Source: an uncultured Bacteroidota bacterium
GTDB taxonomy: Bacteria; Bacteroidota; Bacteroidia; Chitinophagales; Saprospiraceae
Direction: 5' to 3'
Assembly: GCA_903933805.1 (NCBI GenBank)
Contig: CAIZLM010000004.1
Coordinates: forward strand, 1-57,968
DNA length: 57,968 nucleotides
Shown piece by piece: positions 1 through 56,064 of the stretch. A program made the translations under genes and the position numbers. The notes beneath the pieces were generated by a model. It saw only the letters and a program-made list of their open reading frames with translations. It was not told the origin of the DNA and made no database searches. Position 1 is the first letter of the stretch. The number at the start of each line of letters is the position of its first letter.

Positions 1-155
1 TTAGGTGGCACGCTGTCTGGCCAAAAAAGACCCATTTTCCGCCATACTTCGCAGATTTTTTTGACCGTAGCGCTGCTACGGCCTACAAAAATCCGCTTCG
101 TCTGGCAAAAAATGGCCTCTTTTTTGTCTCAGACGCGACCATGCTAACCAGCTAC
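1..155 (+). repeat. MITE-like element copy A, clipped by the window edge
   Basis: First of eleven copies of an interspersed element of about 163 bp. The leftmost bases of the left end (GTAACTGG expected) lie outside the window. The central hairpin CCGTAGC-GCT-GCTACGG is at 65-81 and the right end CTAACCAGCTAC closes at 155. It lies upstream of the exbB-like gene. The target duplication cannot be tested here because the left flank is missing. Confidence 0.9.
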
Positions 156-259
156 GTATTTTATTAAAACAAAATTTTCAGTTTTTGCCCCCATTCAAAA
201 TCCAATAATGCACTTAAAGTAAACCACTTGTTTCACCATATAATCAGTTCGATAAATTT

Positions 260-967
260 ATGACACTCCACGCCCTTTTGAGCGCCTTGTTCTTCCTTCA
301 GGCACCCGCTACGGTACCCGTCACCAAACCTGCCGAATCACAGTCCTTGCTGGACATTATTTTGGGAAGCAGTACCTCTGGTCTGATTGTGATCGGCATA
401 CTGCTCATTTTGTCCATCGTTGCCGTTTACATCATCATCGAAAGGTATCTCACGCTGACCCGCGCAGGCCAGGTTGACCATAATTTCATGAACAGTATCC
501 GGGCCAGTGTTGAAAGTGGCAATCTTCAGGCCGCAAAGGCATTGTGCCAGAGTGTTGATGCTCCTATGGCACGTATGGTGGAAAAAGGACTTGACCGAAT
601 CGGAAAGCCTTTGGACGATATCAACAAGTCAATTGAGAATGTTGGCAATTTGGAGTTGCTAAAACTGGAAAAAAATCTTTCTACCCTGGCCTCTATTTCA
701 GGTATCGCTCCGATGATTGGCCTTTTGGGCACGGTTATCGGTCTGATCATTGCCTTCCAGGATATGGCATCGGCCGACGTGATCAAACCTTCTACGCTTT
801 CCAATGGTATTTATCACGCACTGACAGCCACGGCTTCGGGCTTGTTGGTTTCCATCATTGCCATGGCAGGGTACAATATTTTGGTGAACAACCTCGACAA
901 AGTGATTTTCAAAATGGAAAACACTGCCGTGCAGTTCATGGATCTATTGCAGGAGCCATCTCGTTGA
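260..967 (+). CDS. MotA/TolQ/ExbB proton channel family protein
   Basis: Inner-membrane proton channel subunit of 235 aa that, with an ExbD-type partner, turns the proton gradient into force on a TonB or TolA-like protein. Predicted membrane segments lie at about residues 40-60, 146-167 and 186-209. The second holds the family signature APMIGLLGTVIG (150-161), and the third contains the small-residue-rich stretch that lines the channel in ExbB/TolQ. An N-terminal hydrophobic stretch (1-15) precedes a Pro-rich periplasmic segment, as in many Bacteroidota ExbB proteins. It is the first gene of a three-gene cluster with an ExbD-type and a TonB-type gene. Sequence alone does not separate an ExbB role from a TolQ role. 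Confidence 0.93.
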   Translation: MTLHALLSALFFLQAPATVPVTKPAESQSLLDIILGSSTSGLIVIGILLILSIVAVYIIIERYLTLTRAGQVDHNFMNSIRASVESGNLQAAKALCQSVDAPMARMVEKGLDRIGKPLDDINKSIENVGNLELLKLEKNLSTLASISGIAPMIGLLGTVIGLIIAFQDMASADVIKPSTLSNGIYHALTATASGLLVSIIAMAGYNILVNNLDKVIFKMENTAVQFMDLLQEPSR

Positions 968-1063
968 TAGATAAAACGGATGTTGAAAACGAAGGTTAAG
1001 CCATGACTTCCTTCCAAACACGAATCCTTTTTGTCACATTACCTACGCATTAAATTAAAGAAA

Positions 1064-1474
1064 ATGGGACTCAAACGCCGCCAACGGGTCGAGCCGGAAT
1101 TCAGCCTTGCAGCCATGATCGATGTGATCTTCCTGCTGCTTATGTTTTTTATGCTGACCTCTAATTTCGTCACGCCCAATGCCCTGAACCTTCAACTGCC
1201 TTCCAGTACTTCTAAGTCAATGGCCTCTCCTGCCCTGTCGGTTTCGGTAAAAGCAGACGGTACCTTTTATATTGAGCGGCAGGGGGTAGATAAATTAAAA
1301 CTCGAAACTGCGCTTCGTGCACGCATCCGGGCCGATAGTAAGGACCCGAAAGCAACCACCATCACGGTTGCCGCAGACAAAGCTGCCACCGTGGAAGACG
1401 TCGTGTTTATTCTCGATATTGCCAACCGGTTGAAGGTGAAGACGATCCTGGCCACCAACCCTAGCCAAGAATAG
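1064..1474 (+). CDS. ExbD/TolR family biopolymer transport protein
   Basis: Single-pass inner-membrane partner of the upstream channel protein, 136 aa. A basic cytoplasmic N-terminus (MGLKRRQRVEPEF) is followed by one membrane helix at about residues 14-33. It carries the conserved Asp20 (AMIDVIFLLLMFFML), which in ExbD/TolR is the residue protonated during energy transfer. The remainder is a periplasmic domain. The reading frame is open upstream to a TTG at 1031, but the ATG at 1064 is preferred because it begins directly with the family's basic N-terminus. It lies 96 bp after the ExbB-like gene and 68 bp before the TonB-like gene, so one operon is likely. Confidence 0.92.
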   Translation: MGLKRRQRVEPEFSLAAMIDVIFLLLMFFMLTSNFVTPNALNLQLPSSTSKSMASPALSVSVKADGTFYIERQGVDKLKLETALRARIRADSKDPKATTITVAADKAATVEDVVFILDIANRLKVKTILATNPSQE

Positions 1475-1542
1475 GCTTCGTTTTCCTGCCTGATCGCTCC
1501 CCCGTCACGTCACAAGCATCATTACACCTAAACAACGATGTT

Positions 1543-2472
1543 ATGAAAGCCGTAGTCAATGATAATGAAAACCGCACCAAAGGCCTTTTGATAAGTTTGG
1601 TGTTTCATACCCTGCTGGTTTTGCTGATGTTCCTGTACACATTTGCGAAAAAACCGGAAAGTACTGAAATTCCACCCATTTCCATTGAATGGGGTGGTGG
1701 CGGTGACAATGCTGCCGCCGGCGAACCCGATAAGGGAATGGGGGAGGATTACACGCCACCTGGTGAACAGTCTTCTCCTGCGCCAACAACTCCGGCCGCA
1801 GCGACACCTGTTGCCACGCCTAGGCCAACCCCAACCCCTACAGCCCCCCCTCAAACGGCCACCTCGGATGATCCGGAAGTCGCAGCCGTCAGAAAACAGC
1901 AAGAAAAAGAACGCAAAAAGCAAGAGGAGGCGTACCAACAGGAACAAATCCGTCAAGCAGAGGAGTTTGCCAAGCAAAAAGCAGCAGCCGATGCAAAGGC
2001 CGTCGCCGAAGCCAAACGCAATAAAGTTAAAAACGATGCCGGTGGCGCGTTTAATGGCAAGAAAAATAGCTCCGGCGCGGGCGCCGGCGGTGGTGGCAAT
2101 GCAGGCAATGGCGGCATCAATGGCGGTACTGGCGACAATCCCTTTGGAAAAAGCAGTGGCTCCGGTGGTGGCTCCGGCGGCGGTGATGGAACTGGTACGG
2201 GAGCTTCTGTCGGTGGCGGACTAGGTGGCCGAAAAATAACGAATCGAGGTCGAATCGACGACAGATCCCAAAAAGAAGGCAAAGTGGTTATAGCTGTCTG
2301 CGTTGATACAGAAGGCCAAGTAACAAGTGCAGACTATAGACTATCAGGCTCTACGACGCAAGACACTGAGCTCAAGAACAAGGCCATTGCCGCAGCCAAG
2401 GGCTACCGCTTTGGACCCTCCCAAGCATCGCAAGAATGCGGTACCATAACGTTCGTATTCAAACTAAAATGA
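1543..2472 (+). CDS. TonB/TolA-like energy transducer with Pro-, Lys/Glu- and Gly-rich linker
   Basis: 309-aa periplasm-spanning protein expected to carry energy from the ExbB/ExbD-like pair to the outer membrane. It has a membrane anchor at residues 13-34, then a Pro/Thr-rich stretch (about 70-107) typical of TonB linkers. A highly charged Lys/Glu/Gln/Ala segment (about 113-165) resembles the long TolA helix. It is followed by a Gly/Asn/Ser-rich region (about 168-228) and a TonB/TolA C-terminal-type domain (about 229-309) with the motif EGKVVIAVCVDTEGQV. The mix of TonB and TolA features leaves the exact partner open. It is the last gene of the operon and is followed by a strong terminator at 2556-2614. 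Confidence 0.88.
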   Translation: MKAVVNDNENRTKGLLISLVFHTLLVLLMFLYTFAKKPESTEIPPISIEWGGGGDNAAAGEPDKGMGEDYTPPGEQSSPAPTTPAAATPVATPRPTPTPTAPPQTATSDDPEVAAVRKQQEKERKKQEEAYQQEQIRQAEEFAKQKAAADAKAVAEAKRNKVKNDAGGAFNGKKNSSGAGAGGGGNAGNGGINGGTGDNPFGKSSGSGGGSGGGDGTGTGASVGGGLGGRKITNRGRIDDRSQKEGKVVIAVCVDTEGQVTSADYRLSGSTTQDTELKNKAIAAAKGYRFGPSQASQECGTITFVFKLK

Positions 2473-2555
2473 TCGTATATCGCTGATTGTCCTTGCGCGT
2501 CTATACCACACCATCGCAGTTGCCGGGGTCAGCAACAATATCCTCTTACAAGTCC

Positions 2556-2614
2556 TTTTGATCCATAAAAAAACCCCGATAAGCGCGCTTATCGGGGTTT
2601 TTTATGGATCAAAA
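2556..2614. terminator. Bidirectional terminator with near-perfect palindrome
   Basis: The two arms (TTTTGATCCAT, an A-run, CCCCGATAAGCG, and their complement) are complementary over about 29 bp, differing only in A-run length (7 A against 6 T). The GC stem CCCCGATAAGCG is flanked by A and T tracts, so it can end transcription in both directions. It separates the convergent TonB-like gene (ends 2472) and the secreted protein gene whose stop codon starts at the next base, 2615. Confidence 0.92.
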
Positions 2615-3064
2615 TCAACCCTTGTTGTCGGGCTCAATTCTGGTGAGTACTTTTTTGTCTTCCGATAATTGAAAGATGTCAGGAAAAAAAATCTTGGTGG
2701 TTGCCTGTTCCCGGCATTCGCGACCATCGCGGCGCTTGATGGGTTTTCGTTCCGGGTTTTTTGTGTGGATCGCCAGCACATCCGTGTTTGGTGCAGCCGT
2801 AGAGTCCTTGGTTACGTCATAGCGCCCATCTTTGATCAAAAAATTCAGTATTTCCCTGGATGCATCCCAGATTTGAATGTTTGTTTCCACGAGAATGTTG
2901 CTGCCAGCCCACGCATGTATGTCAAAGTCGCCCACGAGATCAAACGTGACGATTTTGACAGAATCCACGTCAAATATTTGGTAGGTGGTGCGCTCCATCT
3001 GAGCGTTTGCGCTGCTGACACACAGCGCAAACAATACGGTAGGAATCAAGAATAAAATTTTCAT
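2615..3064 (-). CDS. Putative secreted protein, paralogue of the gene at 3349-3765
   Basis: 149-aa protein with a clear Sec signal peptide (MKILFLIPTVLFALCVSSANAQ). The ATG at 3064 is preferred to an in-frame TTG three codons upstream because it starts the signal peptide cleanly. The mature part aligns by eye with the neighbour at 3349-3765. Shared features are a 'V.FDL.G..D...W' strand pattern, a 'GRYD' motif (DGRYDVTKDS here, VGRYDLVSKS there), a following VLxI strand and a C-terminal FFP/FVP-D strand. The pattern of short beta strands resembles DUF4097 or head-GIN 'putative adhesin' proteins, but the match is too weak to name. The C-terminus is charged and ends directly at the terminator. 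Function unknown. Confidence 0.75.
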   Translation of the reverse strand: MKILFLIPTVLFALCVSSANAQMERTTYQIFDVDSVKIVTFDLVGDFDIHAWAGSNILVETNIQIWDASREILNFLIKDGRYDVTKDSTAAPNTDVLAIHTKNPERKPIKRRDGRECREQATTKIFFPDIFQLSEDKKVLTRIEPDNKG

Positions 3065-3149
3065 AGGAAGCAATTTTCAGGGGTAAAGTTCGCACAGTAA
3101 TCCTGAAATTGGTAACGCGAATGGATTTACTATGTTGTATAAGTTTAAA

Positions 3150-3313
3150 GTAACTGGTTAGGTGGCACGCTGTCTGGCCCGAAAAGGGCCATTTTCCGCC
3201 ATGCTTCGCAGATTTTTTTGACCATAGCGCTGCTATGGCCTACAAAAATCCGCTTCGTCTGGCCCGAAAAGGTCCATTTTTTTGTCTCAGACGCGACCAC
3301 GCTAACCAGTTAC
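3150..3313 (+). repeat. MITE-like element copy B with exact 8-bp target duplication
   Basis: Complete copy of 164 bp from GTAACTGGTTAG to CTAACCAGTTAC. It is flanked on both sides by AGTTTAAA (3142-3149 and 3314-3321), a perfect 8-bp target duplication. The central hairpin reads CCATAGC-GCT-GCTATGG (3222-3238), with a compensated base pair relative to copy A. The two arms also contain a 24-bp direct repeat with one mismatch (3172-3195 and 3257-3280). It lies between the two secreted paralogues. Confidence 0.95.
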
Positions 3314-3348
3314 AGTTTAAAAAAGCCTCAGACTGCGGCCCATAACCG

Positions 3349-3765
3349 CTAATAATTACCGGTTGTCTCCCCTCGGAGGAATTGAATTTTGAGGTCTTTC
3401 GGAACGAACACCACAAATGAAATAGCTTCCCGGAGCACCTCACTTTTTACTTTAAGCTGTTTTTGAAGGTTGGGGGCTGTGATGACCAATACGTCACCGA
3501 CAGACTTGGAAACGAGGTCGTAACGGCCGACACTGGCCAATTCGTCGAGCATGGGACCATTGCCAGCCGGGAGCGCAACCCCGATTTCAAACCGCAAGGA
3601 CGGGCTGTCCCAAATTTTTAAATCAATCTTACCGGGCAAATCAAGTACAATCGAAGCGGCGCCCTCGGTGTTAAAGGACTTGTTGAATACCTTGCCCGAC
3701 GGCTGCGCATCAGCGGCAAATGAAAGCGCCAGCAGCATAAACGAAAGATTTGATAGAATAGTCAT
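3349..3765 (-). CDS. Putative secreted protein, paralogue of the gene at 2615-3064
   Basis: 138-aa protein with a short signal peptide ending around AADAQ (residues 17-21). The strand pattern 'SIVLDLPGKIDLKIWD', the GRYD motif and 'DVLVITAPN' match the downstream paralogue, so the pair probably arose by tandem duplication. A remote relation to DUF4097-type beta-rich proteins is possible. A textbook Shine-Dalgarno sequence (AAGGAGGTT, within 3771-3781) lies 5-10 bases before the ATG. This is uncommon in Bacteroidota and suggests either strong translation or foreign origin. The C-terminus (GETTGNY) lies 35 bp from MITE copy B. Function unknown. Confidence 0.75.
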   Translation of the reverse strand: MTILSNLSFMLLALSFAADAQPSGKVFNKSFNTEGAASIVLDLPGKIDLKIWDSPSLRFEIGVALPAGNGPMLDELASVGRYDLVSKSVGDVLVITAPNLQKQLKVKSEVLREAISFVVFVPKDLKIQFLRGETTGNY

Positions 3766-3940
3766 AACAAAACCTCCTTCTTAGTTCACACCAAAATTAA
3801 GTTTTTTTATTGGTAATTGCAATAGCTTAAAGTATAAAATACCTTTTATGGCGCAAAATCGAACAATCGTGAATCGAAAGGATCGATCATTGTTTTCAAA
3901 AGGGCGTTAAATCGTTACCTTAGCCCAAAATTTATGTGTC

Positions 3941-5311: not shown

Positions 5312-5326
5312 TGATAATTATCTAAA

Positions 5327-5489
5327 GTAACTGGTTAGGTGGCGCACTGTCTGCCCCAATAAGGCTTATTTTCTGCCATACTTCGCCCATTTTTTTTACA
5401 AGAGCGTATAATACGGCAAGTAAAATGCGCTTTGTCTGGCAAAAAAACGACCGATTTTTCGCCTCAAACGCGACCATCTAACCAGTTAC
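5327..5489 (+). repeat. MITE-like element copy C, diverged but hairpin retained
   Basis: 163 bp with intact terminal repeats. The interior differs strongly from the other copies, yet the central hairpin is re-formed with different bases (CGTAT-A-ATACG, 5405-5415). The flanking stem changes from GATTTTTTTG/CAAAAATC to a CATTTT...AC/GTAAAATG type. Flanks TATCTAAA and ATCATAAA are only partly similar, so any target duplication has decayed. It lies between the PhoD-like gene and gpsA and ends 18 bp before the gpsA start. Confidence 0.9.
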
Positions 5490-5507
5490 ATCATAAAAAC
5501 AGTCAAA

Positions 5508-7175: not shown

Positions 7176-7337
7176 ATAACTGGTTAGGTGGCACGCTGTT
7201 TGGCCCAAAATGGCCCATTTTCCGCCATACTTCGCATATGTTTTTGACCGTAGCGCTGCTACGGCCTACAAAATGCGCTTCGTCTCGCAAAAAATGGCCT
7301 CTTTTTTGTCTCAGACGCGACCACGCTAACCAGTTAC
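7176..7337 (+). repeat. MITE-like element copy D between lon and its downstream gene
   Basis: 162-bp copy, first base A instead of G. Flanks GATCAGAC (7168-7175) and GATCAGGC (7338-7345) match in 7 of 8 positions and form a slightly decayed target duplication. The central hairpin is CCGTAGC-GCT-GCTACGG. The right duplication contains the lon stop codon (complement of 7340-7342), and the left edge is 12 bases from the start codon of the hypothetical gene at 7164. The element therefore occupies almost the whole gap between the two genes. Confidence 0.93.
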
Positions 7338-11967: not shown

Positions 11968-12371
11968 TTTTTGTCGTGGAAATTTTTTGAGTGCAGCATC
12001 CAGTCAATGGCATCATTACAAGGTAGTCTCCTTATAACATCCTTCACGGGGCGCTGCACGTGTCCTTTCGCAAGGCGTAAATCTTATTTATAACTGGTTG
12101 GGTGGCGCACAGTCTGGTCCAGAAATGGCCGTTTCCAGCCGTAAGCTGTCTATTTTTTTTGACCGTAGCGCTGCTATGTCAAAAAAAACGCTTCGACTGG
12201 AAAAAAACCGGCCACTTTTTTGTCTCAGCCGCGACCTCCTTCTTGGCTGCTACTTTTTATGTATAAACGTGTCAAAGGTAGCTTGAAAATCAGGGTTGCA
12301 TTGATTTTATCCGAGTGAACAAATATGCCGCAACACCATTGATTGGAGTATTCAACGGTATTGTGTTCATT
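11968..12371. other. Intergenic region upstream of mnmG
   Basis: 404 bp between the mnmG start and the stop of the GT-C/TPR gene, both on the minus strand. It holds MITE copy E (12091-12253). The 120 bases nearest mnmG must carry its promoter unless it is read through; no convincing TAnnTTTG box was found there. No further gene was seen. Confidence 0.6.
12091..12253 (+). repeat. MITE-like element copy E, degraded right end
   Basis: About 163 bp, recognised by TAACTGGTTGGGTGGCGCAC at the left, a central CCGTAGC-GCT-GCTATGT hairpin with wobble pairing, and a right arm (TTTTTTGTCTCAGCCGCGACC) whose terminal repeat has decayed to GGCTGCTAC. Flanks CTTATTTA and TTTTTATG show no clear target duplication. 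It is an older copy by these criteria. Confidence 0.85.
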
Positions 12372-15526: not shown

Positions 15527-15689
15527 GTAACTGGTTAGCGTGGTCTCGTCGGAGACAAAAAAGTACACAATTTTTGCCATACGAAGCGGATTTTTGTAGG
15601 CCGTAGCAGCGCTGCGGTCAAAAAAATCTGCGAAGTATGGCGGAAAATGGTTCTTTTTGGGCCATACAGGGTGCCACCCAACCAGTTAC
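15527..15689 (-). repeat. MITE-like element copy F with exact 8-bp target duplication
   Basis: 163-bp copy in the opposite orientation to copies A-E and G. It is flanked by GCAAAATT at 15519-15526 and again at 15690-15697, an exact 8-bp duplication. The central hairpin reads CCGCAGC-GCT-GCTACGG on its own strand, with one mismatch. It lies in the intergenic gap between divergent trhO (minus, start 15503) and the metallopeptidase gene (plus, start 15766). Confidence 0.95.
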
Positions 15690-22642: not shown

Positions 22643-23392
22643 TCAAGTTTGCCAAATTTTCCAGGCTGCATCTGCTTGGAGGTGGAGCATTTCAAGGCCG
22701 TTTTGCACGAAACAGCCTTGTGCCTTGGCTTGGCACAAAAGTAGTGTTTCAGATGGATTGTACACAAGATCAAAGACCAAAATACCGGGTTTCATTATTT
22801 CTGGTGGAATTGGGGGGATCTCTGCCGTGTTGGGAAAGGTGCCAAGTGGTGTACAGTTTACGATGATACCCGATGTAAAGTCACTATTAAGGAGTGCATC
22901 GTAGCTGATTTGGTTGGTTTCCTGTGGATTGCGGGAAACAAACTGAAATGGAATACCCCTTTTTTGCAGTACGTATGCCACGGCTTTAGCGGCCCCGCCA
23001 GTCCCCAAAATATAGGCCTTGGTTGGTTGGTTGGGCCTTTGCATCAGGGCTGGAAGTCCATTCAGACACAGATCAAACCCAATAATATCGGTGTTGTAAC
23101 CAATGCGTTGGCCGGAAGTCTGAATTTTTATACAGTTGACTGCGCCCACAGCCCGGGCTGTTTCGTCAAGTTCGGTTAGAAAAGGGATGACACTTTCCTT
23201 GTAGGGGATGGTGACGTTGAGTCCTTTTATGCCAGGGTTTTGTCGCAACAAGTCCGGCAGATCGGTGATAGATGCTAGGGGATACAGGTCATATTGGGCA
23301 TCGGAGATACCTTCGAGCGAGAATTTTTCCGAAAAATATTTTTTGGAAAAAGAATGGCCAAGTGGCCAGCCGATAAGTCCGAAAGCGCGCAA
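22643..23392 (-). CDS. aroE: Shikimate dehydrogenase
   Basis: NADPH-dependent reduction of 3-dehydroshikimate in aromatic amino acid synthesis. The 249-aa protein has GLIGWPLGHSFSKKYFSEKF (substrate Ser pair), NVTIPYKESVIPFL (about 59) with the catalytic Lys, YNTDIIGFDLCL (about 99) and the dinucleotide motif LGTGGAAKAVAYVLQKRGI (about 124). The most likely start is a TTG at 23392, because no ATG or GTG lies between the conserved GLIGWPLG and the upstream in-frame stop. The product is slightly short compared with the usual 260-290 aa. MITE copy G ends or begins 63 bp upstream, within the expected promoter region. Confidence 0.93.
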   Translation of the reverse strand: MRAFGLIGWPLGHSFSKKYFSEKFSLEGISDAQYDLYPLASITDLPDLLRQNPGIKGLNVTIPYKESVIPFLTELDETARAVGAVNCIKIQTSGQRIGYNTDIIGFDLCLNGLPALMQRPNQPTKAYILGTGGAAKAVAYVLQKRGIPFQFVSRNPQETNQISYDALLNSDFTSGIIVNCTPLGTFPNTAEIPPIPPEIMKPGILVFDLVYNPSETLLLCQAKAQGCFVQNGLEMLHLQADAAWKIWQT

Positions 23393-23454
23393 TTGGATGT
23401 TATTGAGGTGGTGATTGTCCGTTGGGATGATGGAGTATCAAATGTTAAGTTGCT

Positions 23455-23617
23455 GTAACTGGTTAGGTGGCACGCTGTCTGGCCCAAAAAGGTCCAATTT
23501 CCGCTATACTTCGCAGATTTTTTTGACTGTAGCGCTGCTACGGCCTACAAAAATCCACTTCGTCTGGCAAAAAATGGCCACTTTTTTGTCTCAGACGCGA
23601 CCACGCTAACCAGTTAC
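23455..23617 (+). repeat. MITE-like element copy G with exact 8-bp target duplication
   Basis: 163-bp copy, flanked by AAGTTGCT at 23447-23454 and 23618-23625, an exact 8-bp duplication. The central hairpin is CTGTAGC-GCT-GCTACGG with one wobble pair. It lies between rnr (stop at 23658) and the aroE start, both on the minus strand. Confidence 0.95.
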
Positions 23618-23657
23618 AAGTTGCTATAAGTGATTGAAGGAAGATGCGCCTCTTCGT

Positions 23658-25976
23658 TCAATCAACCAATTCCATTTCAATTTGCCGTTTCTGCATATCT
23701 ACAGCAGCGATTCGAACTTTTAGCCGATCGCCCATTGTGAACTGTTTTTTATACCGCTGGCCCACGGCGCGGAGCTTACCTTCTTCCACGATATAGGTAT
23801 CGTCGAGGTAGCGGAAATCAATCAGTCCCTCGGCTTTTGATTCGGGGAGTTCCACAAAGAAGCCCCGTTCGATCATACCACTGATCACGCCTTCGAATGT
23901 TTCACCGATACGGCTTTTTAGAAATTCAGCTTGTTTGTATTTTACACTTTCACGCTCTGCGTCGGCGGCTTTTCGTTCTTGGTTGCTGATGTGTTTACAC
24001 TGTTCCTCCAGTTTGGATTTATCTACTCGGTAGGTTTTTCCATCTAAGTTTCGTTCCAAGATACGGTGTGCCAGCACGTCTGAGTAACGTCGTATGGGGG
24101 AAGTAAAGTGGCTGTAATGGGAGAATCCAAGTCCGTAGTGTCCAATGTTATCGGCGGAATAAACGGCTTTGGCCATGGTTCTGATGGCCAGTGGTTCGAG
24201 GAGTTTGAGGCGATCGTCTTTGCGCGCGGCGCGCATGAGTTCGTTGAAAGATTTTGCGATTTGTTGTGGTGTGTCCACTTTCATGGGGTGTCCCAGTTCA
24301 GTGGCAAACCGGGCAAAATCGGCTACTCTTGACATGTCTGGCAGGTCGTGTACGCGAAAAATAAAAGGTATTTCTGCACCTTCTTTGCCTTCAGTTGTTT
24401 GGTTGCCACGTGGCTGAGGTGGCGGCTGCATGTAGAGGGCTACCTCTTTATTGGCCAGCAGCATAAAGTCTTCGATGAGGAGGTGGGCATCCTTTCGTGC
24501 CTTCACATAGGCTTCCAGGGGTGTTCCGTCTTCGGCCAATCGGAAGCGCACTTCATCTGTTTCGAATCCAATTGCGCCATTTTTTTCGCGCTCTTTGCGC
24601 ATTTTCTTGGCGATTCGGTCTAAATTGGCCAATCCCCAATCGAGGTTTTCGAACAGGGGGTGGGATTTTAGTTCCGGGGAAGTTTTTTGCTCCAAGACAG
24701 TTTGAGCTTCTTCGTAAGCGAAGCGTTTGTCGCTAAAAATCACCGTTTTTCCAAACCACCGTTTTACGAGTTTGTCTTTTTCATCAAAGCTAAACACCGC
24801 AGAGAAGGTCAGCCTGTCTTGTTCGGGCACCAGGGAGCACAGGTTGTTCGAAATTTTTTCGGGCAACATGGGGTTACATCGGTCAACGAGGTAAACTGAC
24901 GTACTTCGTGCATAGGCTTCTTGGTCGAGTACAGAGTCGGGTTTGAGGTAGTAGGTTACATCGGCGATGTGGACGCCAATTTCCAGGTGGCCATTTTCCA
25001 GTTGTTGGATGCTGAGAGCGTCGTCAAAATCTCGGGCATCTTCCGGGTCAATGGTAAACGTGAGTACATCTCTGAAATCGCGTCGGCGTTCTATTTCCTG
25101 TGGAGATATGGTTTCCGGGATACGGGCGGCTTCTGCCTCAGCTTCTTCGGAGTGTTGGAGCGGGAAACCTTGGTTGATGAGAATTTTCTTCATTTCGAAG
25201 TCGTTTCCAGCCACTTTTCCCAGTACTTGGGTTACCTTACCGATGGGTACACGTCCTTTACCTTCTTGCCAATCGGTGATATGGATCACAACTTTATCGC
25301 CATCCCGCGCTTCTCCGCAAGCTTCGAGGGGTACGAAAATATCAGTTAGTATGTTTGGATTGTCTGGGATAAACAGGGCGTACTTTCGGCTTATGCGCAG
25401 TGTCCCCATAAACAATTCGTTGGCGCGTTTAAGCACCATCATGACCTCGCCCTCCGGTTTTCGGATTGCTTGTCCGTGTCGTCTGGGCGGGGTGGGGAAC
25501 AGCATGACCTGTACGATGTCGCCATTGAGGGCACTTTTGAGGTATTTGGCAGACACGTACACATCGGTGTCAAGCAATTCTGATACGATGTACGCTGCGC
25601 CGGAGCGGGTCATATCAACGCGTCCCTCCACCACTTTCCTTGATTTTGAAGGAGGGGTATTAAAGCGTTCAACCCGGTTTTTATCGGGTCTTTCTTTGGG
25701 TGGCCCTGCGGGGATATGTTCTTCCGCTGGAGCGGAGGTCAGTTTTGCGAGTGCTATACCAAAGCGGTTCAGGGAAAATTCAGCCACAGACCCGATTTCT
25801 ACCAGTTGGCGTAAAGCGTGTTCTGCTGAGTCGTGGTTGTTTTCGACCCGGAGTTGCCCGGTGATTTGCAGGGGGGAGAACTGCTTTTTAGGATGGCCGA
25901 GCAGGAATTTCAGGATTTCAATTTGAAGCTGTTGTGCGGTCATTTTTTTGCCGCCAAACTTCTTTTTTTTGGTCAT
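23658..25976 (-). CDS. rnr: Ribonuclease R
   Basis: Processive 3'-5' exoribonuclease that digests structured RNA. It has 772 aa from the ATG at 25976 (MTKKKKFGGKKMTAQQL), preferred to an in-frame TTG nine codons upstream. It contains an N-terminal winged-helix-like segment (KFLLGHPKKQFSPLQITGQL), cold-shock domains, and the RNB catalytic core with the metal-binding cluster FTIDPEDARDFDDALSI (Asp residues, about 320-336). The core also has a conserved YSHFTSPIRRYSDVLAHR (about 655), and a C-terminal S1 domain (FEGVISGMIERGFFVELPE) follows. The usual Lys-rich C-terminal tail is absent: it ends shortly after S1 with QKRQIEMELVD. Confidence 0.95.
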   Translation of the reverse strand: MTKKKKFGGKKMTAQQLQIEILKFLLGHPKKQFSPLQITGQLRVENNHDSAEHALRQLVEIGSVAEFSLNRFGIALAKLTSAPAEEHIPAGPPKERPDKNRVERFNTPPSKSRKVVEGRVDMTRSGAAYIVSELLDTDVYVSAKYLKSALNGDIVQVMLFPTPPRRHGQAIRKPEGEVMMVLKRANELFMGTLRISRKYALFIPDNPNILTDIFVPLEACGEARDGDKVVIHITDWQEGKGRVPIGKVTQVLGKVAGNDFEMKKILINQGFPLQHSEEAEAEAARIPETISPQEIERRRDFRDVLTFTIDPEDARDFDDALSIQQLENGHLEIGVHIADVTYYLKPDSVLDQEAYARSTSVYLVDRCNPMLPEKISNNLCSLVPEQDRLTFSAVFSFDEKDKLVKRWFGKTVIFSDKRFAYEEAQTVLEQKTSPELKSHPLFENLDWGLANLDRIAKKMRKEREKNGAIGFETDEVRFRLAEDGTPLEAYVKARKDAHLLIEDFMLLANKEVALYMQPPPQPRGNQTTEGKEGAEIPFIFRVHDLPDMSRVADFARFATELGHPMKVDTPQQIAKSFNELMRAARKDDRLKLLEPLAIRTMAKAVYSADNIGHYGLGFSHYSHFTSPIRRYSDVLAHRILERNLDGKTYRVDKSKLEEQCKHISNQERKAADAERESVKYKQAEFLKSRIGETFEGVISGMIERGFFVELPESKAEGLIDFRYLDDTYIVEEGKLRAVGQRYKKQFTMGDRLKVRIAAVDMQKRQIEMELVD

Positions 25977-26183
25977 ATTGTATTTGGGAAGTGCGTTTTT
26001 CAACGCAAAGTAACGATAAGTTCGCGTTTTTTTGCGAAAAAGTGGTGTTTTTGATCATTTAATAGCGTGTAGAAATCTACTGTTTGGGTGATTTCTTACG
26101 TTGTTTCGCAGTATTGAACAAAATAATTGTCAAAAATGAACGAAAACACCTTTCTTAAACGTAAATTCCTACCATAAAGTTTC

Positions 26184-26252
26184 ATAACCAGTTGGGTGTC
26201 ACACTGTCTGGCAAAAAAATGCCACTTTTTTTCTTAGGCTCGACGAACCAGT
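26184..26252 (+). repeat. Partial MITE-like copy H, central hairpin deleted
   Basis: The left arm (AACCAGTTGGGTGTCACACTG, then TCTGGC) is joined directly to a right arm (AAAAAATGCCACTTTTTTTC, then TTAGGCTCGAC and AACCAGT). About 90 central bases, including the hairpin, are missing. Its right edge abuts the inverted-end element at 26251. Confidence 0.7.
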
Positions 26253-26590: not shown

Positions 26591-26647
26591 GTAACTGGTG
26601 AGGTGGCACGCTGGTCTGGCCAAATGCGTCGTTTTGCCTTAGACGCG
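26591..26647 (+). repeat. Partial MITE-like copy I, overlapping the subtilase stop codon
   Basis: The left arm GTAACTGGTGAGGTGGCACG (continuing CTGGTCTGGCC) is followed after about 10 bases by a right-arm fragment TTTTGCCTTAGACGCG; centre and right terminal repeat are missing. The right-arm fragment overlaps 26639-26647, so the last two codons and the TAA of the subtilase gene are written in element sequence. Confidence 0.75.
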
Positions 26648-34059: not shown

Positions 34060-34100
34060 GGGTCGCGTCTGAGCCAAAAAACCGGCCATTTTTTGCCAGA
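34060..34100 (-). repeat. Partial MITE-like copy J, right half only
   Basis: GGTCGCGTCTGAGCCAAAAA, followed by ACCGGCCATTTTTTGCCAGA, matches the right half of the element in reverse orientation. The terminal repeat on the serC side has decayed and everything from the central hairpin onward is missing. It begins 9 bp after the serC stop codon. Confidence 0.7.
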
Positions 34101-34144
34101 AATCGTGCGGCCTGCGCAGTTGCGAAAGTAATCCCAGACATGCT

Positions 34145-50650: not shown

Positions 50651-50669
50651 AATCCGAGTTAGGCGAGAC

Positions 50670-50697
50670 GGTTGGCGTTCAATTAAGAACGCCAACC
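50670..50697 (+). terminator. Hairpin between rpsD and rpoA
   Basis: GGTTGGCGTTC (50670-50680), loop AATTAA, and GAACGCCAACC (50687-50697) form a perfect 11-bp stem. It is followed by ATTTTCGCGTTTAAA, a weak T tract. It may be a partial terminator, a processing site or an mRNA stability element within the alpha operon. Confidence 0.55.
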
Positions 50698-50795
50698 ATT
50701 TTCGCGTTTAAAGCGATTCAATTTCGCTCTCTTTTTTCCCCGCCCAGACAAATAAACCAATTTTTCCCACCAATCACTCCCGGAGCGTTCCACAT

Positions 50796-51794: not shown

Positions 51795-51810
51795 TGTCTT
51801 CTTGGGTGCA

Positions 51811-51878
51811 ATAATGTAGGGTAGTTTGTGGTGGCGCTGCTACTTAGATTACCCTATATTATCTTATTTTTTTTACTA
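51811..51878 (+). terminator. Terminator-like hairpin between rpoA and rplQ
   Basis: ATAATGTAGGGTA (51811-51823) pairs with TACCCTATATTAT (51850-51862), 12 of 13 Watson-Crick plus one G-T pair. It is followed by CTTATTTTTTTTAC, a strong T tract on the plus strand. It would end transcription after rpoA and leave rplQ on a separate or read-through transcript. Confidence 0.6.
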
Positions 51879-51931
51879 ACAAAGTGTGGTAACTGTCGAG
51901 CGGATGGGTGTGTAATGTATCGGATGGGCAA

Positions 51932-51939
51932 TATTTTTG
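51932..51939 (+). promoter_or_regulatory. Candidate -7 box of rplQ
   Basis: TATTTTTG fits TAnnTTTG and lies 66 bases before the rplQ ATG, downstream of the hairpin at 51811-51878. No good TTG at -33. It supports, weakly, separate transcription of rplQ. Confidence 0.35.
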
Positions 51940-52005
51940 TCAACATGTCACTTACGCACGTTTTCCAGCCCCGGTGCTACCACCTGCAAAACAGGTAACC
52001 GTACA

Positions 52006-52557
52006 ATGAGACACGGAGACAAAGTTAACAACCTTGGACGCACTGCGTCCCACCGCCGCGCCCTTTTGGCAAATTTGGCTATTGCGCTCATCGAGCACAA
52101 ACGCATCACCACGACATTGGCAAAAGCAAAAGCGCTTCGCGTGTATCTTGAGCCACTGGTGACCAAAGCCAAAGACAACACAACACACCAACGCCGTATC
52201 GTTTTCTCCTATCTTCAAAACAAGGAGGCCGTCAAAGAAATTTTTGGCCCAATTGCTGAAAAGATCGGTGATCGTCCAGGTGGTTATGTTCGTGTAATCA
52301 AGTTGGGCTTCCGTCGTGGTGACGGCGCTGAAACGGCTATGATTGAGTTTGTAGATTTCAACGAGACCTACAACCCAAATGCTGGCAAAGTTAAAACGGC
52401 CAAGAAAACCCGTCGTGGTAGTGCTAAAAAAGCCGCTGGTGTGGTAGAAGAAGTTGTTGAAGCGCCAGTTGTTGCTGATGAAGCTGCTGAGGTGGCAGAT
52501 GCTTCGGCTGAAATGGCTGCTGAGACTACTGAAAACAACGAAGAACAACAGGCATAA
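52006..52557 (+). CDS. rplQ: 50S ribosomal protein L17 with acidic C-terminal extension
   Basis: 183-aa protein at the tunnel exit; start ATG 52006 ([20 protein letters not shown]). It has the L17 core with [20 protein letters not shown] and [20 protein letters not shown], ending near residue 125 ([11 protein letters not shown]). Then a basic stretch ([16 protein letters not shown]) and an Ala/Glu/Val-rich tail to the end ([20 protein letters not shown]). Extensions of this kind are common in Bacteroidota. It is the last gene of the cluster, followed by a strong terminator. Confidence 0.95.
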
Positions 52558-52581
52558 ACGTTCAGTGTGCTGTAAAATAGT

Positions 52582-52620
52582 AGAGGCGATGTCGCATATA
52601 TGCGGCATCGCCTCTTTTTT
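52582..52620. terminator. Terminator after rplQ
   Basis: AGAGGCGATG-t-CGCA, loop TATA, and TGCG-g-CATCGCCTCT form a stem with one mismatch, followed by TTTTTT. It separates rplQ from the convergent M4 protease gene (stop at 52639) and can act in both directions. Confidence 0.9.
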
Positions 52621-52638
52621 GTTCGCCGTACTATTGGT

Positions 52639-55600
52639 CTAGAGCTTTGTTATTTTTACGGCAGCGCCCAGTATTCCGGAAACTACACGAACGATATAGG
52701 TGCCTGCAGGCAACGTACGCATATCCATGTCAAGGATATTGTCTCCTTCCTGCAGCTTGACAGATCGTGTCAACCATGTTTGGCCATAAATATTGTACAC
52801 TGTAATCTCCGCATCTGCTGTCCGTGTGGCGTTGAGCGTGATCTGTGTTTCAGCCTGCACTGGGTTGGGTGTTACTTGGATGTTGAGCGGTGATGGTAAG
52901 GGCTCCTTCGAGTCCAAGGCAAGATTTCGACTGCCATTTCCGTACCAAGCTCCCCAAGAGTGATTGCTGATGAAAGCGGTACTGTTGCCGGTTGGCTGTA
53001 TTTTGCTTGACGCCAAACCTTGTAAGCGTAAGTTGTATGTACCTTGAGAAGGATTGGTTTCATACATCAGTTTGCTGTCGAGTCTGTTGTAACTCGGCCA
53101 GCCGAGTGTACCATTGTTGGATACGAGAACATTGTAGTCGCCAGTTTCACTGTTGGCGCCATACACATCGTAAGAAGGGGTGGTTCCATTTTCGTCTATG
53201 AAATCGAAAGCGATGACAAAGGGGGAGTTTTTAGCAAAAGCAGGGTTGCCAATACTGGTGTTTTCTGGAAGACCAGAGAACAGTTTGGAAATAAAGGCAT
53301 TGTTCACAGGTGTAAACTGCCCGTTTTTCCTGAATTGTAGGAAGCCAATATCCCAGTAACCGATTGATTCGCCTTGGTTGTTACCGATTTCATTGTAGGA
53401 GTCATACATCAGATTTTCACCCGAGTAATCAAACTCAAGCACATCGGCGTATTGTACATCGCCGGTGATCTGTCCGGTTGAATACGTTGGGTTGTACAAA
53501 TTATAGGCCCGGGATTCATCCGTGATCAGGTCAAAAATGTGGATAACAGGCTCCTTCGTTGTGGTGAGTGCTGCAACAAATCGGCCATTTTTAGAAATGA
53601 CAGCCTGTCGCCATTCCGCTGTTGTGCTGAGTGTAAACGTAGAATAGGTGATCGGGTTGGTGGAATAGTCGAATGAAATACCAATGATGTTGTTTGCCTC
53701 ATTGACAAATACCAGGTCTAAGCCATTGTCAATGATGCTTGGGCGGCTTTGAACACCTTGGTTGTAAACAGTACCGAGAATGGTGCCAGCACCTGTTGCG
53801 AGGTCGAGGTTTTGCAGATCGTTGGACACACAGAGTACATAATCGGTACCTGGATTCGGATTCAATTGACCGAGGTAGTTGCCGCTGGGCGTACTACCGC
53901 CGATGCCCACGGCGGTAAAAGCACTGGCGGCTATATTGGCTACAGAAGTGCCGTAGAGATCTGTTGCTGCTTGGATAACCGCAATGCGACAGTCAACAAA
54001 TTTGCTGCTTTTGGTTAGGTAGTCGCGCAGTGCTTTGTAGTACACTTGTTCGGCCTTTGTTTTTCCCACGGATGCGTTGTTGGCAAAGAGGTAAAACGCG
54101 TGGTTTGGGATGCCGCTGTTGATGTGAACGCCGCCATTGTCTGTTGCGCCGGTAAATTGTTCATTGGTATGGCTTGGTTGCCACCAAGTGGTACCGGATG
54201 ATGCTCCGTTGTGTGGGTTTGAGAGGTCACGCAGGCAACCGCTGGGGGTTACGCCAGATATGACGACATCCTCGCCAATTTTCCAGTCGTCGTTGTCGAT
54301 CATGGCTCCAAAAACATCGGCAAACGACTCGTTGAGGGCGCCGCTTTCACCCTGATAAACCAGGTTTGCTGTTTTTTCCACCACGCCGTGGGTCATTTCA
54401 TGACCACCAACGTCGAGCCCGCGTGCCAAGGGCTTAAAAATGTTGCCACCATTGCCGTACCACATCGCTGCACCATTCCAGAAAGCATTTTCCATGGAGG
54501 TACCATCCCCTTCCGTGATGTTGACGAAAGAAATAATATTCCCTCCTACGCCATCAATGGAGTTGCGGTTGAATTTTGTTTTAAAATAATCAAAACTGAG
54601 GCCAGCGTTGTAGTGGGCGCTGATGCCAGCTTTTACATTGGTGAATACCGTAGCATTGGAAGAGATGAGATCGTAATCAAAATTGCCGTTTTCCGGGGAT
54701 GTACTCAACCCATCAATGGTCACAATGGCGCCAACGGGATCGCTTGGCATATTGGAAGTGCCCGCGTTGAACATGGATTTACTGGCATCTTCCAGCACGA
54801 CTTGTGTGCCGATTTGCCAGCCGCCATTGGTAAACGTCCGGTTAATATTCAGCAAATCCTGTCCTTGAATGGTTACAGGGCCGTTTAATACACTGGAAAC
54901 TTGAAGGCCAGACGCGACATTGTGTTCAATGGCTGGTGTACAAATTTCCGCGCCATCGTGGTGGTGTCCGACTAAATTGCAGGTATTGTCATAGGAGTCC
55001 AAGATTTCACCCGTTGCGGCATCTACAAAATATACCAGTCGGCTGAGCACATTTGGATGAGCGATCACCCGCCAAGCCAAGCACTCGCCATCGGTGGCAT
55101 TGTTGCGGTGGAAAACCAGTAGATCAGCAGAGAACGGCTGACCATCAATGAGTTTGAGCTCAGCGGCTGTCCAGTTTGTTTTAATTTTATCCGTTCCAAT
55201 CTTGGTCTTAACCACGGTAATGGCAGGGGTTTCCTCCATCCGTGGCGTTACGGTAGTCAGTTTGGGGGTTGGAAAATAACGGCCATTGACGCGTACGAAA
55301 ATACCGTTGTTGGTGTGGGCGATTAACTCGCCACCCCATACAGGAACGCCTTGAAACCATTGATCCATTCGGATATGGTCGTTGCCCTGTTCGTCGGTTT
55401 GGACAGACTTCACCACAAATTCCTGGGAGGGTGATGCCAGTCCGGGCGGTTGGAGGCTGGAAAGGTACTCCAGTGCGCGTTCAGGGATGGTGCGGTTTTC
55501 GCCGTTGTTTTCAGAAGCGGCGGTTTTGCCTTCCATCAGGATGGGCAGGCCATTTTCGCCCAGTGTCATTTTAATGGATGCATGGGTGGTGCCAGACTTT

Positions 55601-55806
55601 GGTGCGAGGACTGGCAAGGGTTTTTTTTCTGATTGTTGGAAGTTTAGAGGGTTTTCTGTTGGGGGGAGGTTGTCCTTTCCCGGCCAATGAATGCTGGGCG
55701 AAGGAGATGTTTGTTCATTTTTGAAAGTAGGCGTTGGTTTGCCGTGCTGGGCATAGGATACCTCGAAACACAGGGCCACCAACAAAATGGGGAGTAAACT
55801 TTTCAT
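52639..55806 (-). CDS. M4 (thermolysin-like) metalloprotease with beta-propeller-like and T9SS sorting domains
   Basis: 1055-aa secreted protease. It has a signal peptide (MKSLLPILLVALCFEVSYAQ) and a propeptide (about 60-250) with fungalysin/thermolysin-type segments (DQWFQGVPVWGGELIAHTN). The M4 catalytic domain has zinc site GGHEMTHGVV (about 467-476), Glu in GALNESFADVFGAMID (about 492) and the active-site His in DNGGVHINSGIPNHAFYLFA (about 568). Residues about 670-960 form repeated strands like WD40-type beta-propeller units (AEWRQAVISKNGRFVAALTT). The last 80 residues (from about 975) are a Por-type sorting domain: NPVQAETQITLNATRTADAE, ITVYNIYGQ and GTYIVRVVSG. It is likely exported by the type IX system; substrate unknown. 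Confidence 0.94.
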   Translation of the reverse strand: MKSLLPILLVALCFEVSYAQHGKPTPTFKNEQTSPSPSIHWPGKDNLPPTENPLNFQQSEKKPLPVLAPKSGTTHASIKMTLGENGLPILMEGKTAASENNGENRTIPERALEYLSSLQPPGLASPSQEFVVKSVQTDEQGNDHIRMDQWFQGVPVWGGELIAHTNNGIFVRVNGRYFPTPKLTTVTPRMEETPAITVVKTKIGTDKIKTNWTAAELKLIDGQPFSADLLVFHRNNATDGECLAWRVIAHPNVLSRLVYFVDAATGEILDSYDNTCNLVGHHHDGAEICTPAIEHNVASGLQVSSVLNGPVTIQGQDLLNINRTFTNGGWQIGTQVVLEDASKSMFNAGTSNMPSDPVGAIVTIDGLSTSPENGNFDYDLISSNATVFTNVKAGISAHYNAGLSFDYFKTKFNRNSIDGVGGNIISFVNITEGDGTSMENAFWNGAAMWYGNGGNIFKPLARGLDVGGHEMTHGVVEKTANLVYQGESGALNESFADVFGAMIDNDDWKIGEDVVISGVTPSGCLRDLSNPHNGASSGTTWWQPSHTNEQFTGATDNGGVHINSGIPNHAFYLFANNASVGKTKAEQVYYKALRDYLTKSSKFVDCRIAVIQAATDLYGTSVANIAASAFTAVGIGGSTPSGNYLGQLNPNPGTDYVLCVSNDLQNLDLATGAGTILGTVYNQGVQSRPSIIDNGLDLVFVNEANNIIGISFDYSTNPITYSTFTLSTTAEWRQAVISKNGRFVAALTTTKEPVIHIFDLITDESRAYNLYNPTYSTGQITGDVQYADVLEFDYSGENLMYDSYNEIGNNQGESIGYWDIGFLQFRKNGQFTPVNNAFISKLFSGLPENTSIGNPAFAKNSPFVIAFDFIDENGTTPSYDVYGANSETGDYNVLVSNNGTLGWPSYNRLDSKLMYETNPSQGTYNLRLQGLASSKIQPTGNSTAFISNHSWGAWYGNGSRNLALDSKEPLPSPLNIQVTPNPVQAETQITLNATRTADAEITVYNIYGQTWLTRSVKLQEGDNILDMDMRTLPAGTYIVRVVSGILGAAVKITKL

Positions 55807-55990
55807 GATAGAATTAAAATTAAATATTAAAAGATGAGGTTAGAAATATAATTCAGATAGTACATCAAATTGGGAGACTTAAAGTTCTTGATTTAGGTGT
55901 AATAATGTCTAAAAACGGCAACATTTAACAGATTAACTAATTATATTATGTGTAATTTAATAAAAAAAATGTAATATTTAATGATTTAAC

Positions 55991-56064
55991 GTAACTGGTT
56001 GGCGTGGTCGCGTCTGAGACAAAAAAGTGGTTATTTTTTTGCCAGACGAAGCGGATTTTTGTAG
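55991..56064 (-). repeat. Partial MITE-like copy K, right half only
   Basis: GTAACTGGTTGGCGTGGTCG followed by CGTCTGAGACAAAAAAGTGG and GCCAGACGAAGCGGATTTTTGTAG-type sequence matches the right half in reverse orientation, with an intact terminal repeat. The left half is missing; between 56065 and the murF-alr stop (56099) lies a different small hairpin (CAACGA...TCGTTG, 56072-56095). Confidence 0.8.

Follow-up and report, generated by a model that had tools for sequence, protein, structure and literature searches.

IS66-associated miniature elements in a Saprospiraceae genome contain a conserved hairpin core that also occurs in elements with other ends

Introduction

MITEs are usually viewed as IS elements without their middle, whose interior is of no consequence. 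The window analyzed here, a 57,968-bp stretch of DNA that is an entire contig of an uncultured Saprospiraceae bacterium, is densely occupied by ca. 163-bp elements with GTAA ends and a central hairpin. This locus raises the questions of what moves these elements and whether their interior is a mere remnant.

Results and discussion

Copies of the element in the window

A first-pass annotation made from the letters of the window had counted at least eleven copies, and BLASTN with the consensus located all of them at or near the same places. The inverted ends it gave, GTAACTGGTTAG / CTAACCAGTTAC, were correct, and its view that the elements have no coding frame holds: they are 163 or 78 bp long, far below the size for a transposase frame. 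The full-size elements at 3150–3313 (plus strand), 15527–15689 (minus strand), and 23455–23617 (plus strand) were matched by BLASTN over exactly these spans and are flanked by perfect 8-bp duplications (AGTTTAAA, GCAAAATT, and AAGTTGCT, respectively); the last one sits between the RNase R gene and the shikimate dehydrogenase gene. The full-size element at 7176–7337 (plus strand; BLASTN, 7177–7337) has a duplication with one mismatch (GATCAGAC/GATCAGGC). The duplication is unrecognizable (four mismatches) around the diverged full-size element at 5327–5489 (plus strand; 80% to the consensus), and the right end of the full-size element at 12091–12253 (plus strand; BLASTN, 12091–12236) is degraded. 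The full-size element at 1–155 (plus strand; BLASTN, 1–155), whose core lies at 32–115 with the hairpin on the minus strand, is clipped by the end of the contig, which the window covers in full. Fragments at 26184–26252 (plus strand; BLASTN, 26185–26244), 26591–26647 (plus strand; BLASTN, 26591–26624), and 34060–34121 (minus strand; BLASTN, 34061–34121) are closest to a short form that has no core. The annotation had given the last fragment as 34060–34100. A truncated full-size element with a single end lies at 55991–56064 (minus strand; BLASTN, 55991–56064).

Abundance and target duplications

The end motif, with one mismatch at most, had 676 + 646 = 1322 matches genome-wide versus 28 + 32 = 60 for the reversed control, and we estimate that the genome has several hundred copies. 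Elements occupied 107 places, corresponding to 2.56% of a 436,337-base sample that is biased upward, being composed of the window and 20 stretches of copy-bearing contigs. Therefore, the high density noticed in the window extends beyond it. The sample for target duplications comprised 69 end pairs, a few of which share an end; both flanks were available for 67. The 8-bp flanks were exact in 20 of these 67 pairs (ca. 0.09 expected) and had one mismatch in 12 (0.32 in the control), giving statistical support to the 8-bp duplications that the annotation had named as an IS66 trait. The insertion sites are AT-rich. The elements are short, lack a transposase frame, and have terminal inverted repeats and a duplication of fixed length (8 bp), as MITEs do.

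IS66 elements with the same ends

A full-length IS66-type element with the ends GTAACTGGTTAG was found in the same genus. This element (L098 of genome G009) is 3130 bp long, both its ends start with GTAACTGGTTAGCC, and it is flanked by a perfect 8-bp duplication (ttttcaga); a repeated insertion interrupts it on either side of the transposase frame. A second element (L099 of genome G025; 1050 bp) has the same ends, flanks matching at 6 of 8 positions, and an internally deleted transposase. The first 12 bp of both are identical to those of the MITE. The protein of L098 matches the IS66 transposase family NF033517 of NCBIfam at 255.9 bits (curated cut-off, 180), and that of L099 at 143.3 bits, a score under the cut-off that is consistent with its deletion. 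These same-genus elements with identical 12-bp ends and, in L098, a perfect 8-bp duplication support the IS66 origin that had been guessed. The MITE shares its ends with IS elements of a putatively autonomous type, represented by the interrupted L098 and the deleted L099.

GTAA-type ends with 8/8 flank matches were present in 10 (L009, L092, L096, L098, L101, L102, L104, L106, L107, and L108) of 27 IS66 loci in a scan that took GTAA ends alone and in which some loci are one element counted twice. Genome G012 contains a MITE whose core is of this kind and whose ends, GTAACTATCCAGTCGC, are near those of another IS66 element, L011 (GTAACTATCCAGCCGCC). Three IS66-family loci are present in the own genome, all with ends other than those of the MITE: GTAAGCC... 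at one locus, a decayed copy of it at the second, and GTAACTATCCAGCC... at the third. The source is therefore either missing from the 336-contig assembly or lost in it. The single-ORF IS66 elements L098, L099, and L011 resemble the MITE in having GTAA ends and a duplication of 8 bp, which is perfect in L098, but differ in having a transposase frame and no core. When the core was sought in 19 of the 27 IS66 loci, the sole match, at L010, lay inside an adjacent MITE. The elements encode no transposase and are IS66-associated MITEs, not members of IS66.

Shell, core, and size classes

The full element of ca. 163 bp consists of a shell of ca. 78 bp (ends and arms) and an 84-bp core, and the two size classes, 163 and 78 bp, differ by the core. 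From the ends and duplications described above, a single-ORF IS66-family transposase probably spreads the MITEs in trans, and the shell would be the part that it recognizes. In the copy at 23455–23617, the core is placed at 23494–23577 on the minus strand by the consensus offset; the first 150 bases of this copy were used for folding. Imperfect direct repeats (GTCTGGCCCAAAAAGGCC / GTCTGGCAAAAAATGGCC) border the core, and a deletion between them would be the simplest origin of the 78-bp class, namely the shell minus the core. The core-less 78-bp copies have exact 8-bp duplications in 5 of 31 cases, and the duplicated ones may be full elements that lost the core later. The central hairpin had been recognized at first; that it is a separate conserved module had gone unseen. 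We read each full element as two joined parts, the core being a separately inherited hairpin module that is also present in MITEs of other transposases.

Folding and covariation of the core

Compensatory changes were observed at 18 of the 24 pairs of the core hairpin. Across 30 genomes, covariation was 0.571, compared with 0.178 after shuffling and no more than 0.166 when the structure was slid; paired cells amounted to 94.2% (73.0% shuffled), and doubly changed cells to 139 (44.8 shuffled). RNAalifold gave −15.5 kcal/mol on the hairpin strand and −7.4 kcal/mol on the opposite strand. The same strand folded better in 14/14, 29/30, and 44/49 sequences of three sets. Orientation was set by sequence in the 14/14 set (motif or element) and the 44/49 set (motif), while the strand in the 29/30 set and in the 24-pair table was chosen by a structure-aware model, which makes these counts partly circular. 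At the 24 consensus pairs, 59 G-U cells were tallied versus 8 A-C cells, the pattern expected from selection on one single strand. In the motif-oriented set, the G-U pairs on the two strands numbered 63 versus 29 in Saprospiraceae-type elements. The difference was small in Microscilla (12/11), Burkholderiales (15/11), Rudanella (4/3), and Flavobacteriaceae (6/3), and its direction was reversed in Clostridiales (5/10). The hairpin has conserved unpaired bases, and its internal loops are conserved in many families.

Rfam 15 at the gathering level had no matches in the window. For L152, L201, and L158, searched at E-values up to 1, the only match was a sub-threshold Trp_leader outside the element. 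A classical terminator does not fit since the order U-tract, stem, and A-tract is wrong, and inspection by eye found no general U-run downstream. Judged by their motifs, integron attC, REP, and primosome sites appear to fit poorly.

The core in other genomes and between other ends

Among the 42 genomes of the genus, 34 have the core, as do 56 of the 298 genomes of the order (own genome counted in both). Further carriers are other Bacteroidota as well as Acidovorax, Polaromonas, and Rhodoferax. BLAST gave a match in 7 of 59 relatives, and elements with the ends described here were seen in G014 and G025 alone. Elsewhere, the same core lies inside miniature elements that differ in their ends and make shorter duplications. 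These measure 4 bp in 8 of 15 Burkholderiales end pairs (at least one element counted twice) and 2 bp in 6 of 8 end pairs with AGTACC ends. A count of short-tip duplications in Microscilla (29/255) was left out because of many false end pairs. Both flanks were available for 28 of the 30 best genus cores; by eye, all of these lie between inverted arms, and none stands alone.

It is tempting, though somewhat short of an even chance in our judgment, to regard the core as a mobile structured-hairpin module, most likely RNA, that was joined repeatedly to unrelated IS ends. An old hairpin placed on IS66-type (8 bp), CTAG-like (4 bp), and TA-type (2 bp) ends would ride any available transposase, in Saprospiraceae, in other Bacteroidota, and as far afield as Comamonadaceae. 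The ends of two loci with PF13340 (L267 and L268) resemble two of the shells. In the scan of 30 PF13340 loci, however, the majority had no shell-like ends, and an IS5-type source for some shells is therefore tentative.

A single old MITE family whose ends mutated toward new transposases while the interior was kept could also explain these data. For 20 of 30 cores, the most similar core belongs to an element with the same ends (shuffled mean, 2.4), so that inheritance is to a large extent of whole elements, and in G223 the end sets TAGACTTGTTGCGACGGGAG and TAGACTTTATGAACAGA have inner arms and core in common. However, ends making 8-, 4-, and 2-bp duplications would hardly interconvert while remaining mobile. 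The own core is nearer to those of TAGACTTGTTGC-ended (0.75) and CACTGTAAATT-ended (0.71) elements than to that of the GTAACTGGTTAG-ended elements of G014 (0.65), and GACTTGTTGCGG ends carry two core types that are 52% alike. We thus regard drift of the ends as an unlikely account.

The likeness of the cores might instead be a by-product of palindromy, with MITE interiors turning independently into AT-rich hairpins; MITE transcripts generally make stable stem-loops (PMC10969869). A loop signature, [AG]AGGC + ACGNA, falls outside our search pattern. The signature is not universal, being present in 2/25 distinct Saprospiraceae-type elements, 0/2 of Rudanella, and 1/2 of Flavobacteriaceae, and among pattern matches in 0/5 of Clostridiales and 0/1 of Flavobacterium. 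Yet it occurs in 9/10 distinct Burkholderiales elements (0.03 expected) and 4/5 Microscilla elements (0.01 expected), and our model R2 reached E-values down to 5e-14 in genomes outside its training while, at E 0.001, 242 of 298 order genomes (15 candidates scored per genome) and 387 of 395 genomes of a second set (11 candidates per genome) were blank. Convergence therefore appears improbable. R2 also matched 33 of 34 named loci, picked by the search pattern, at E 0.01; L205 (Flavobacterium sp. UBA5153) has no R2 match and is apparently a chance match of the pattern. The Clostridiales matches are multi-copy, and we do not claim them as core carriers given their loop signature (0/5) and strand preference (3/5).

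Possible role of the core

Taken with the shared ends, these observations lead us to favor, with moderate confidence, a reading in which the elements are IS66-moved MITEs with a separate core module that has a cis-acting role at the RNA level. An element transcribed from a neighboring promoter would let the core fold into a processed or protein-bound hairpin, and the folded core would temper the effect of the insertion on host transcripts, by which copies would survive. The same strand preference was obtained with DNA energy parameters (29/30); therefore, it cannot tell RNA from single-stranded DNA, and it led us to rate the RNA reading slightly lower and the single-stranded-DNA one slightly higher. 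The small G-U differences outside the Saprospiraceae-type elements and the general lack of a bias relative to flanking genes also count against the RNA reading. We infer that the core acts as RNA rather than single-stranded DNA, and likewise its transcription, binding partner, and benefit.

The core could alternatively act as double-stranded DNA, its A-tracts and cruciform-forming palindrome bending the 160-bp element so that the ends meet in the transposition complex, a role suggested for the IHF site of the Correia element of Neisseria. A general mechanical role would suit its central position in elements of several different transposases, and the long form of Correia elements has an internal 50-bp IHF-binding insert (PMC2229807). 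A cruciform would have no strand preference, however, whereas G-U cells exceed A-C cells by 59 to 8 and one strand folds better in 44/49 motif-oriented sequences. The exact duplications of core-less copies (5/31) also stand against bending, although these may be later deletions. We consider this explanation unlikely.

Single-stranded-DNA hairpins take part in movement or recombination, for example, attC sites and REP hairpins, and the core might have entered MITE shells by such replication-linked processes. The strand-specific hairpin under DNA parameters, the conserved unpaired bases, and the presence of one core type in different shells are consistent with this. However, copies in G296, a genome of two contigs, showed no preference for the lagging strand (in a hand count of 45 copies that took the contig start as the origin, 22 were co-oriented and 23 anti-oriented), all 28 flanked genus cores are enclosed by inverted arms (by eye) with none solitary, and the duplications are of the DDE transposase kind. 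This explanation is rather improbable.

No description of a hairpin core common to differently ended MITEs was found in the open-access literature searched. A covarying hairpin that remains constant under changing ends would point to the interior as the part maintained by selection; if the core is a mobile module as outlined above, the MITEs of these bacteria would be vehicles for one conserved hairpin, not mere IS debris. The covariance model, the strand, and the recurrent loops provide a handle on the function of bacterial MITEs, be it for the elements or for the hosts, and on why some lineages hold hundreds of them. Were the hairpin an RNA bound to a partner protein, it would represent a widespread motif absent from the Rfam results and the open-access literature searched.

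Comparison with known systems

MITECca01 of Cardinium, derived from IS982, has 169 copies and makes up 3.5% of the chromosome (PMC9769881). IS-derived bacterial MITEs of this kind are alike in shortness, lack of a coding frame, IS-type inverted ends, and high copy number, but the elements described here, estimated at several hundred copies, have as interior a conserved covarying hairpin common to MITEs with other ends. Correia/NEMIS elements of Neisseria have two size classes set by an internal insert, as here, and a long RNA stem-loop for which RNase III cutting is proposed (PMC2229807). Their insert is described as a 50-bp IHF site, whereas here it is an 84-bp hairpin. Their ends, with TA at the termini (PMC2229807), and their duplication differ from the GTAAC ends and 8-bp duplication found here, so the present elements are not Correia/NEMIS members. 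ERIC reaches 711 copies in Photorhabdus (PMC10969869), a similar copy number, and has an RNA hairpin, which in our elements is predicted from sequence; ends and host group differ, and a core common to other end types is not described for ERIC in the cited part. REPs, 20–40 bp long (PMC3733652), are likewise multi-copy hairpins, but our elements are longer and have IS-type inverted ends and 8-bp target duplications.

Genomic placement

The search for empty sites within the sample returned self matches, tandem neighbors, and matches to element copies in the flank, with no true empty site. In 29 relatives, rnr beside aroE had no match within the up to 1.5 kb fetched, and gene order is not kept there. 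Spacings of 7 or 8 bp between neighboring elements were seen repeatedly, in seven pairs of the genome listing and in three, partly the same, of the sample; by a rough estimate, this exact spacing is commoner than under random placement. Neighbors within 12 bp numbered 5 against 5.4 expected; because this looser count does not exceed random, we give tandem placement no weight. Relative to the flanking genes, whose orientation was judged by a crude ORF caller, no bias was observed in the own genome (of 49 copies, 9 were sense and 10 antisense) or elsewhere in the Bacteroidota (4/8 and 7/4), and the Burkholderiales lean weakly to sense (8/1 among 18 copies, p 0.04). By the same crude caller, 8 of the 49 own copies lie inside an ORF.

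Copies, size classes and target duplications

All 11 copies of the MITE-like element named in the first-pass annotation were found in the window, which is an entire contig (C4; 57,968 bases) of a 4.2-Mb genome in 336 contigs. Allowing at most one mismatch, the end motif GTAACTGGTTRG gave 1322 matches genome-wide versus 60 for the reversed control, indicating several hundred copies in the genome. In a 436-kb sample, 107 element places accounted for 2.56% of the bases, a value biased upward because sampling was confined to contigs in which copies had been detected beforehand. Several contigs of this genome (G000) start in or just beside an element (C2:1-163, C48:22-185, C49:14-176, C38 and C40 near base 26, and the window at 1-155). 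Therefore, the repeat family probably breaks the assembly.

The sample contained 69 end pairs, a few with a shared end, and both flanks were in hand for 67. Of these 67, 20 had an exact 8-bp duplication, every other length from 5 to 10 bp yielded at most one exact case, and a further 12 pairs had an 8-bp duplication with one mismatch. When partners were dealt between elements, the corresponding 8-bp values were 0.09 and 0.32. The target duplication of GTAACTGGTTAG ends is 8 bp. The targets were AT-rich (GC of exact duplications, 19% versus 48% in the sample).

Thirty end pairs were 158-168 bp long, 31 were 74-82 bp, and 8 had other sizes. The short class corresponds to the long class minus ca. 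85 bp of the centre, and this centre is bordered by imperfect direct repeats. Median identity to the own consensus was 0.951 for long and 0.846 for short copies; where both flanks were readable, exact duplications were seen in 14 of 28 members of the long class and 5 of 31 of the short class. A 32-bp element (L038:13272-13303), barely more than two ends, has kept a perfect 8-bp duplication, TTCAAAAG. Mini-elements of 54-55 bp (L053:17216-17269 and L048:7992-8046) have a related yet different end, GTAACTACTTAGG. Elements or fragments in the same orientation were also found exactly 8 bp apart (G000 C198:30950-31282, C37:1145-1478, C27:29718-29934, C109:23782-24004, and C100:8724-8934), as though an existing end had supplied its adjoining 8 bp as target site for a second copy.

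IS66-family elements as the probable transposase source

The own genome has three IS66-family loci. L009 is a three-gene element that has GTAAGCCTCCCAC ends and is flanked by a perfect 8-bp duplication, L010 is a decayed copy of it, and L011 is of the single-ORF type, with GTAACTATCCAGCCGCC ends and without a clear duplication. None of the three carries the MITE ends. The missing autonomous IS66 may have been lost through the same assembly breakage by repeats. A genus-wide search of 42 genomes, including the own, gave IS66 matches in 11 genomes at 27 loci, two of which have the MITE ends. One of them (L098, genome G009) is flanked by a perfect 8-bp duplication; at the other (L099, genome G025), 6 of 8 flank bases match, and its host also carries close MITE copies. 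Both proteins matched the IS66 transposase model, that of L099 being internally deleted and scoring under the model cut-off. Since both elements share the MITE ends and match this model, the IS66 link guessed from the sequence alone stands. We searched 19 of the 27 IS66 loci for the MITE core, and the sole match, at L010, came from an adjacent MITE. In L098 (594-3723), a repeated insertion lies on either side of the transposase frame; by reading of its frames, it is putatively IS1-like.

A core shared by elements with different ends

A search of 60 genomes, including the own, with a 164-bp copy matched eight: the own and seven relatives. Same-ended elements were seen in G014 and G025. In the other five (G003, G022, G031, G023, and G008), only the centre matched and the elements carry other ends, which led to the finding of a shared core. 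Around cores of 30 genomes, 14 sets of ends were labelled, several of which appear related; the best core lay between inverted arms, judged by eye, in all 28 genomes for which both flanks were available.

The transposase determines the duplication length. Burkholderiales elements had a 4-bp duplication in 8 of 15 end pairs (at least one element counted twice). Elements ending in AGTACC showed 2-bp duplications in 6 of 8 cases, and those ending in GACTTGTTGCGG did so in 4 of 6. The ends of two PF13340 elements of the same genus (L267 and L268) resemble two of the shells, tentatively suggesting an IS5-type source for these.

For 20 of 30 cores, the nearest neighbour was enclosed by the same set of ends (shuffled mean, 2.4), indicating that whole elements are mostly inherited together. 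Nevertheless, core and ends appear only loosely tied. At the low resolution of 84 bases, the window core was closest overall to the G025 core in the same ends (0.83), but its similarity was 0.75 to cores in TAGACTTGTTGC ends, 0.71 to those in CACTGTAAATT ends, and only 0.65 to the G014 core in the same GTAACTGGTTAG ends. GACTTGTTGCGG ends enclose two core types, 52% alike. In G223 (L220-L246), two tip sets, TAGACTTGTTGCGACGGGAG and TAGACTTTATGAACAGA, occur with common inner arms and core in one genome.

Earlier studies have described IS-type ends, high copy numbers, and RNA stem-loops in MITEs (PMC10969869, PMC2229807, PMC9769881). The elements of the window form a new family within this known kind, and what sets the family apart is the core common to MITEs with other ends; our search of open-access literature turned up no description of a single covarying core shared by MITEs whose ends are unrelated.

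The genes for RNase R and shikimate dehydrogenase adjoin at window 22646-26003; in 29 relatives, the sequence retrieved next to the dehydrogenase gene, at most 1.5 kb long, contained no match to RNase R.

Hairpin structure and possible role of the core

The alignment of 30 cores gave a single consensus hairpin of 24 pairs, 18 with compensatory changes. Paired cells reached 94.2% versus 73.0% after shuffling, and covariation was 0.571 versus 0.178 shuffled and at most 0.166 with slid partners. Among distinct elements, the two loop motifs, which lie outside the search pattern, occurred together in 9 of 10 from Burkholderiales (0.03 expected) and 4 of 5 from Microscilla, but in 2 of 25 of Saprospiraceae type, 1 of 2 from Flavobacteriaceae, and none of the two from Rudanella or the five from Clostridiales; in Saprospiraceae, a variant with that loop partly paired is common (by eye). 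Rfam, searched with the window at gathering scores and with three loci at E up to 1, gave no relevant family.

The same strand folded better in 14 of 14, 29 of 30, and 44 of 49 sequences of three sets, and a manual tally of the 30-core alignment gave 59 G-U versus 8 A-C cells; in the 49-sequence set, the G-U excess was small outside Saprospiraceae-type elements and reversed in Clostridiales. This bias towards one strand suggests that the core has a single-stranded form, and we consider it most likely, with moderate confidence, that the core would act as a cis-acting RNA hairpin. Gene-orientation bias was absent in the own genome (9 versus 10) and other Bacteroidota, which weakens a role on host transcripts; Burkholderiales copies lean weakly to sense (8 versus 1). 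That the core works through DNA bending is unlikely. A role as single-stranded DNA gains from folds with DNA energy parameters, which again favoured the preferred strand in 29 of 30 sequences, so that the preference marks a single strand and not RNA as such. In G296, replication-strand bias was absent (22 versus 23 by hand count, with the origin assumed at the contig start). Because DNA-parameter folds fail to separate RNA from single-stranded DNA, confidence in the main explanation was reduced slightly and that in the single-stranded-DNA role raised slightly, the latter still being rated quite improbable.

Spread of the core across bacteria

The covariance model R1, built from 14 cores of seven genomes, detected a core in 34 of the 42 congeneric genomes, a count that includes the own genome and those used for training; the 30 cores described above come from 30 of these 34. 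With the later models, 15 or 11 candidates were scored per genome, and the counts are lower bounds: within the order, at least 56 of 298 genomes (R2; 37 of 140 genera, 50 of the 56 genomes outside the genus used to build the model) and, across the phylum, at least 8 of 395, own counted (R3). A whole-genome search scoring at most 150 candidates gave 2 to 149 matches in each of 15 genomes, all picked for a prior match and most already represented in R3. A pattern scan of named genomes yielded at least 93 stretches and at least 80 loci. Among the matches listed were Saprospiraceae, Lewinella, Phaeodactylibacter, Microscilla, Rudanella, Flavobacteriaceae, Acidovorax, Polaromonas, Rhodoferax, other Comamonadaceae, and Clostridiales MAGs, plus one probable chance match. 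An element of Comamonadaceae type in a record labelled Pantoea sp. 18069 (L166; NZ_CACSJA010000049.1) may reflect a mislabelled record or a transferred element. In G296 (L115 and odd numbers of L221-L247), the core lies within GGCC-rich arms, not clear IS-type ends.
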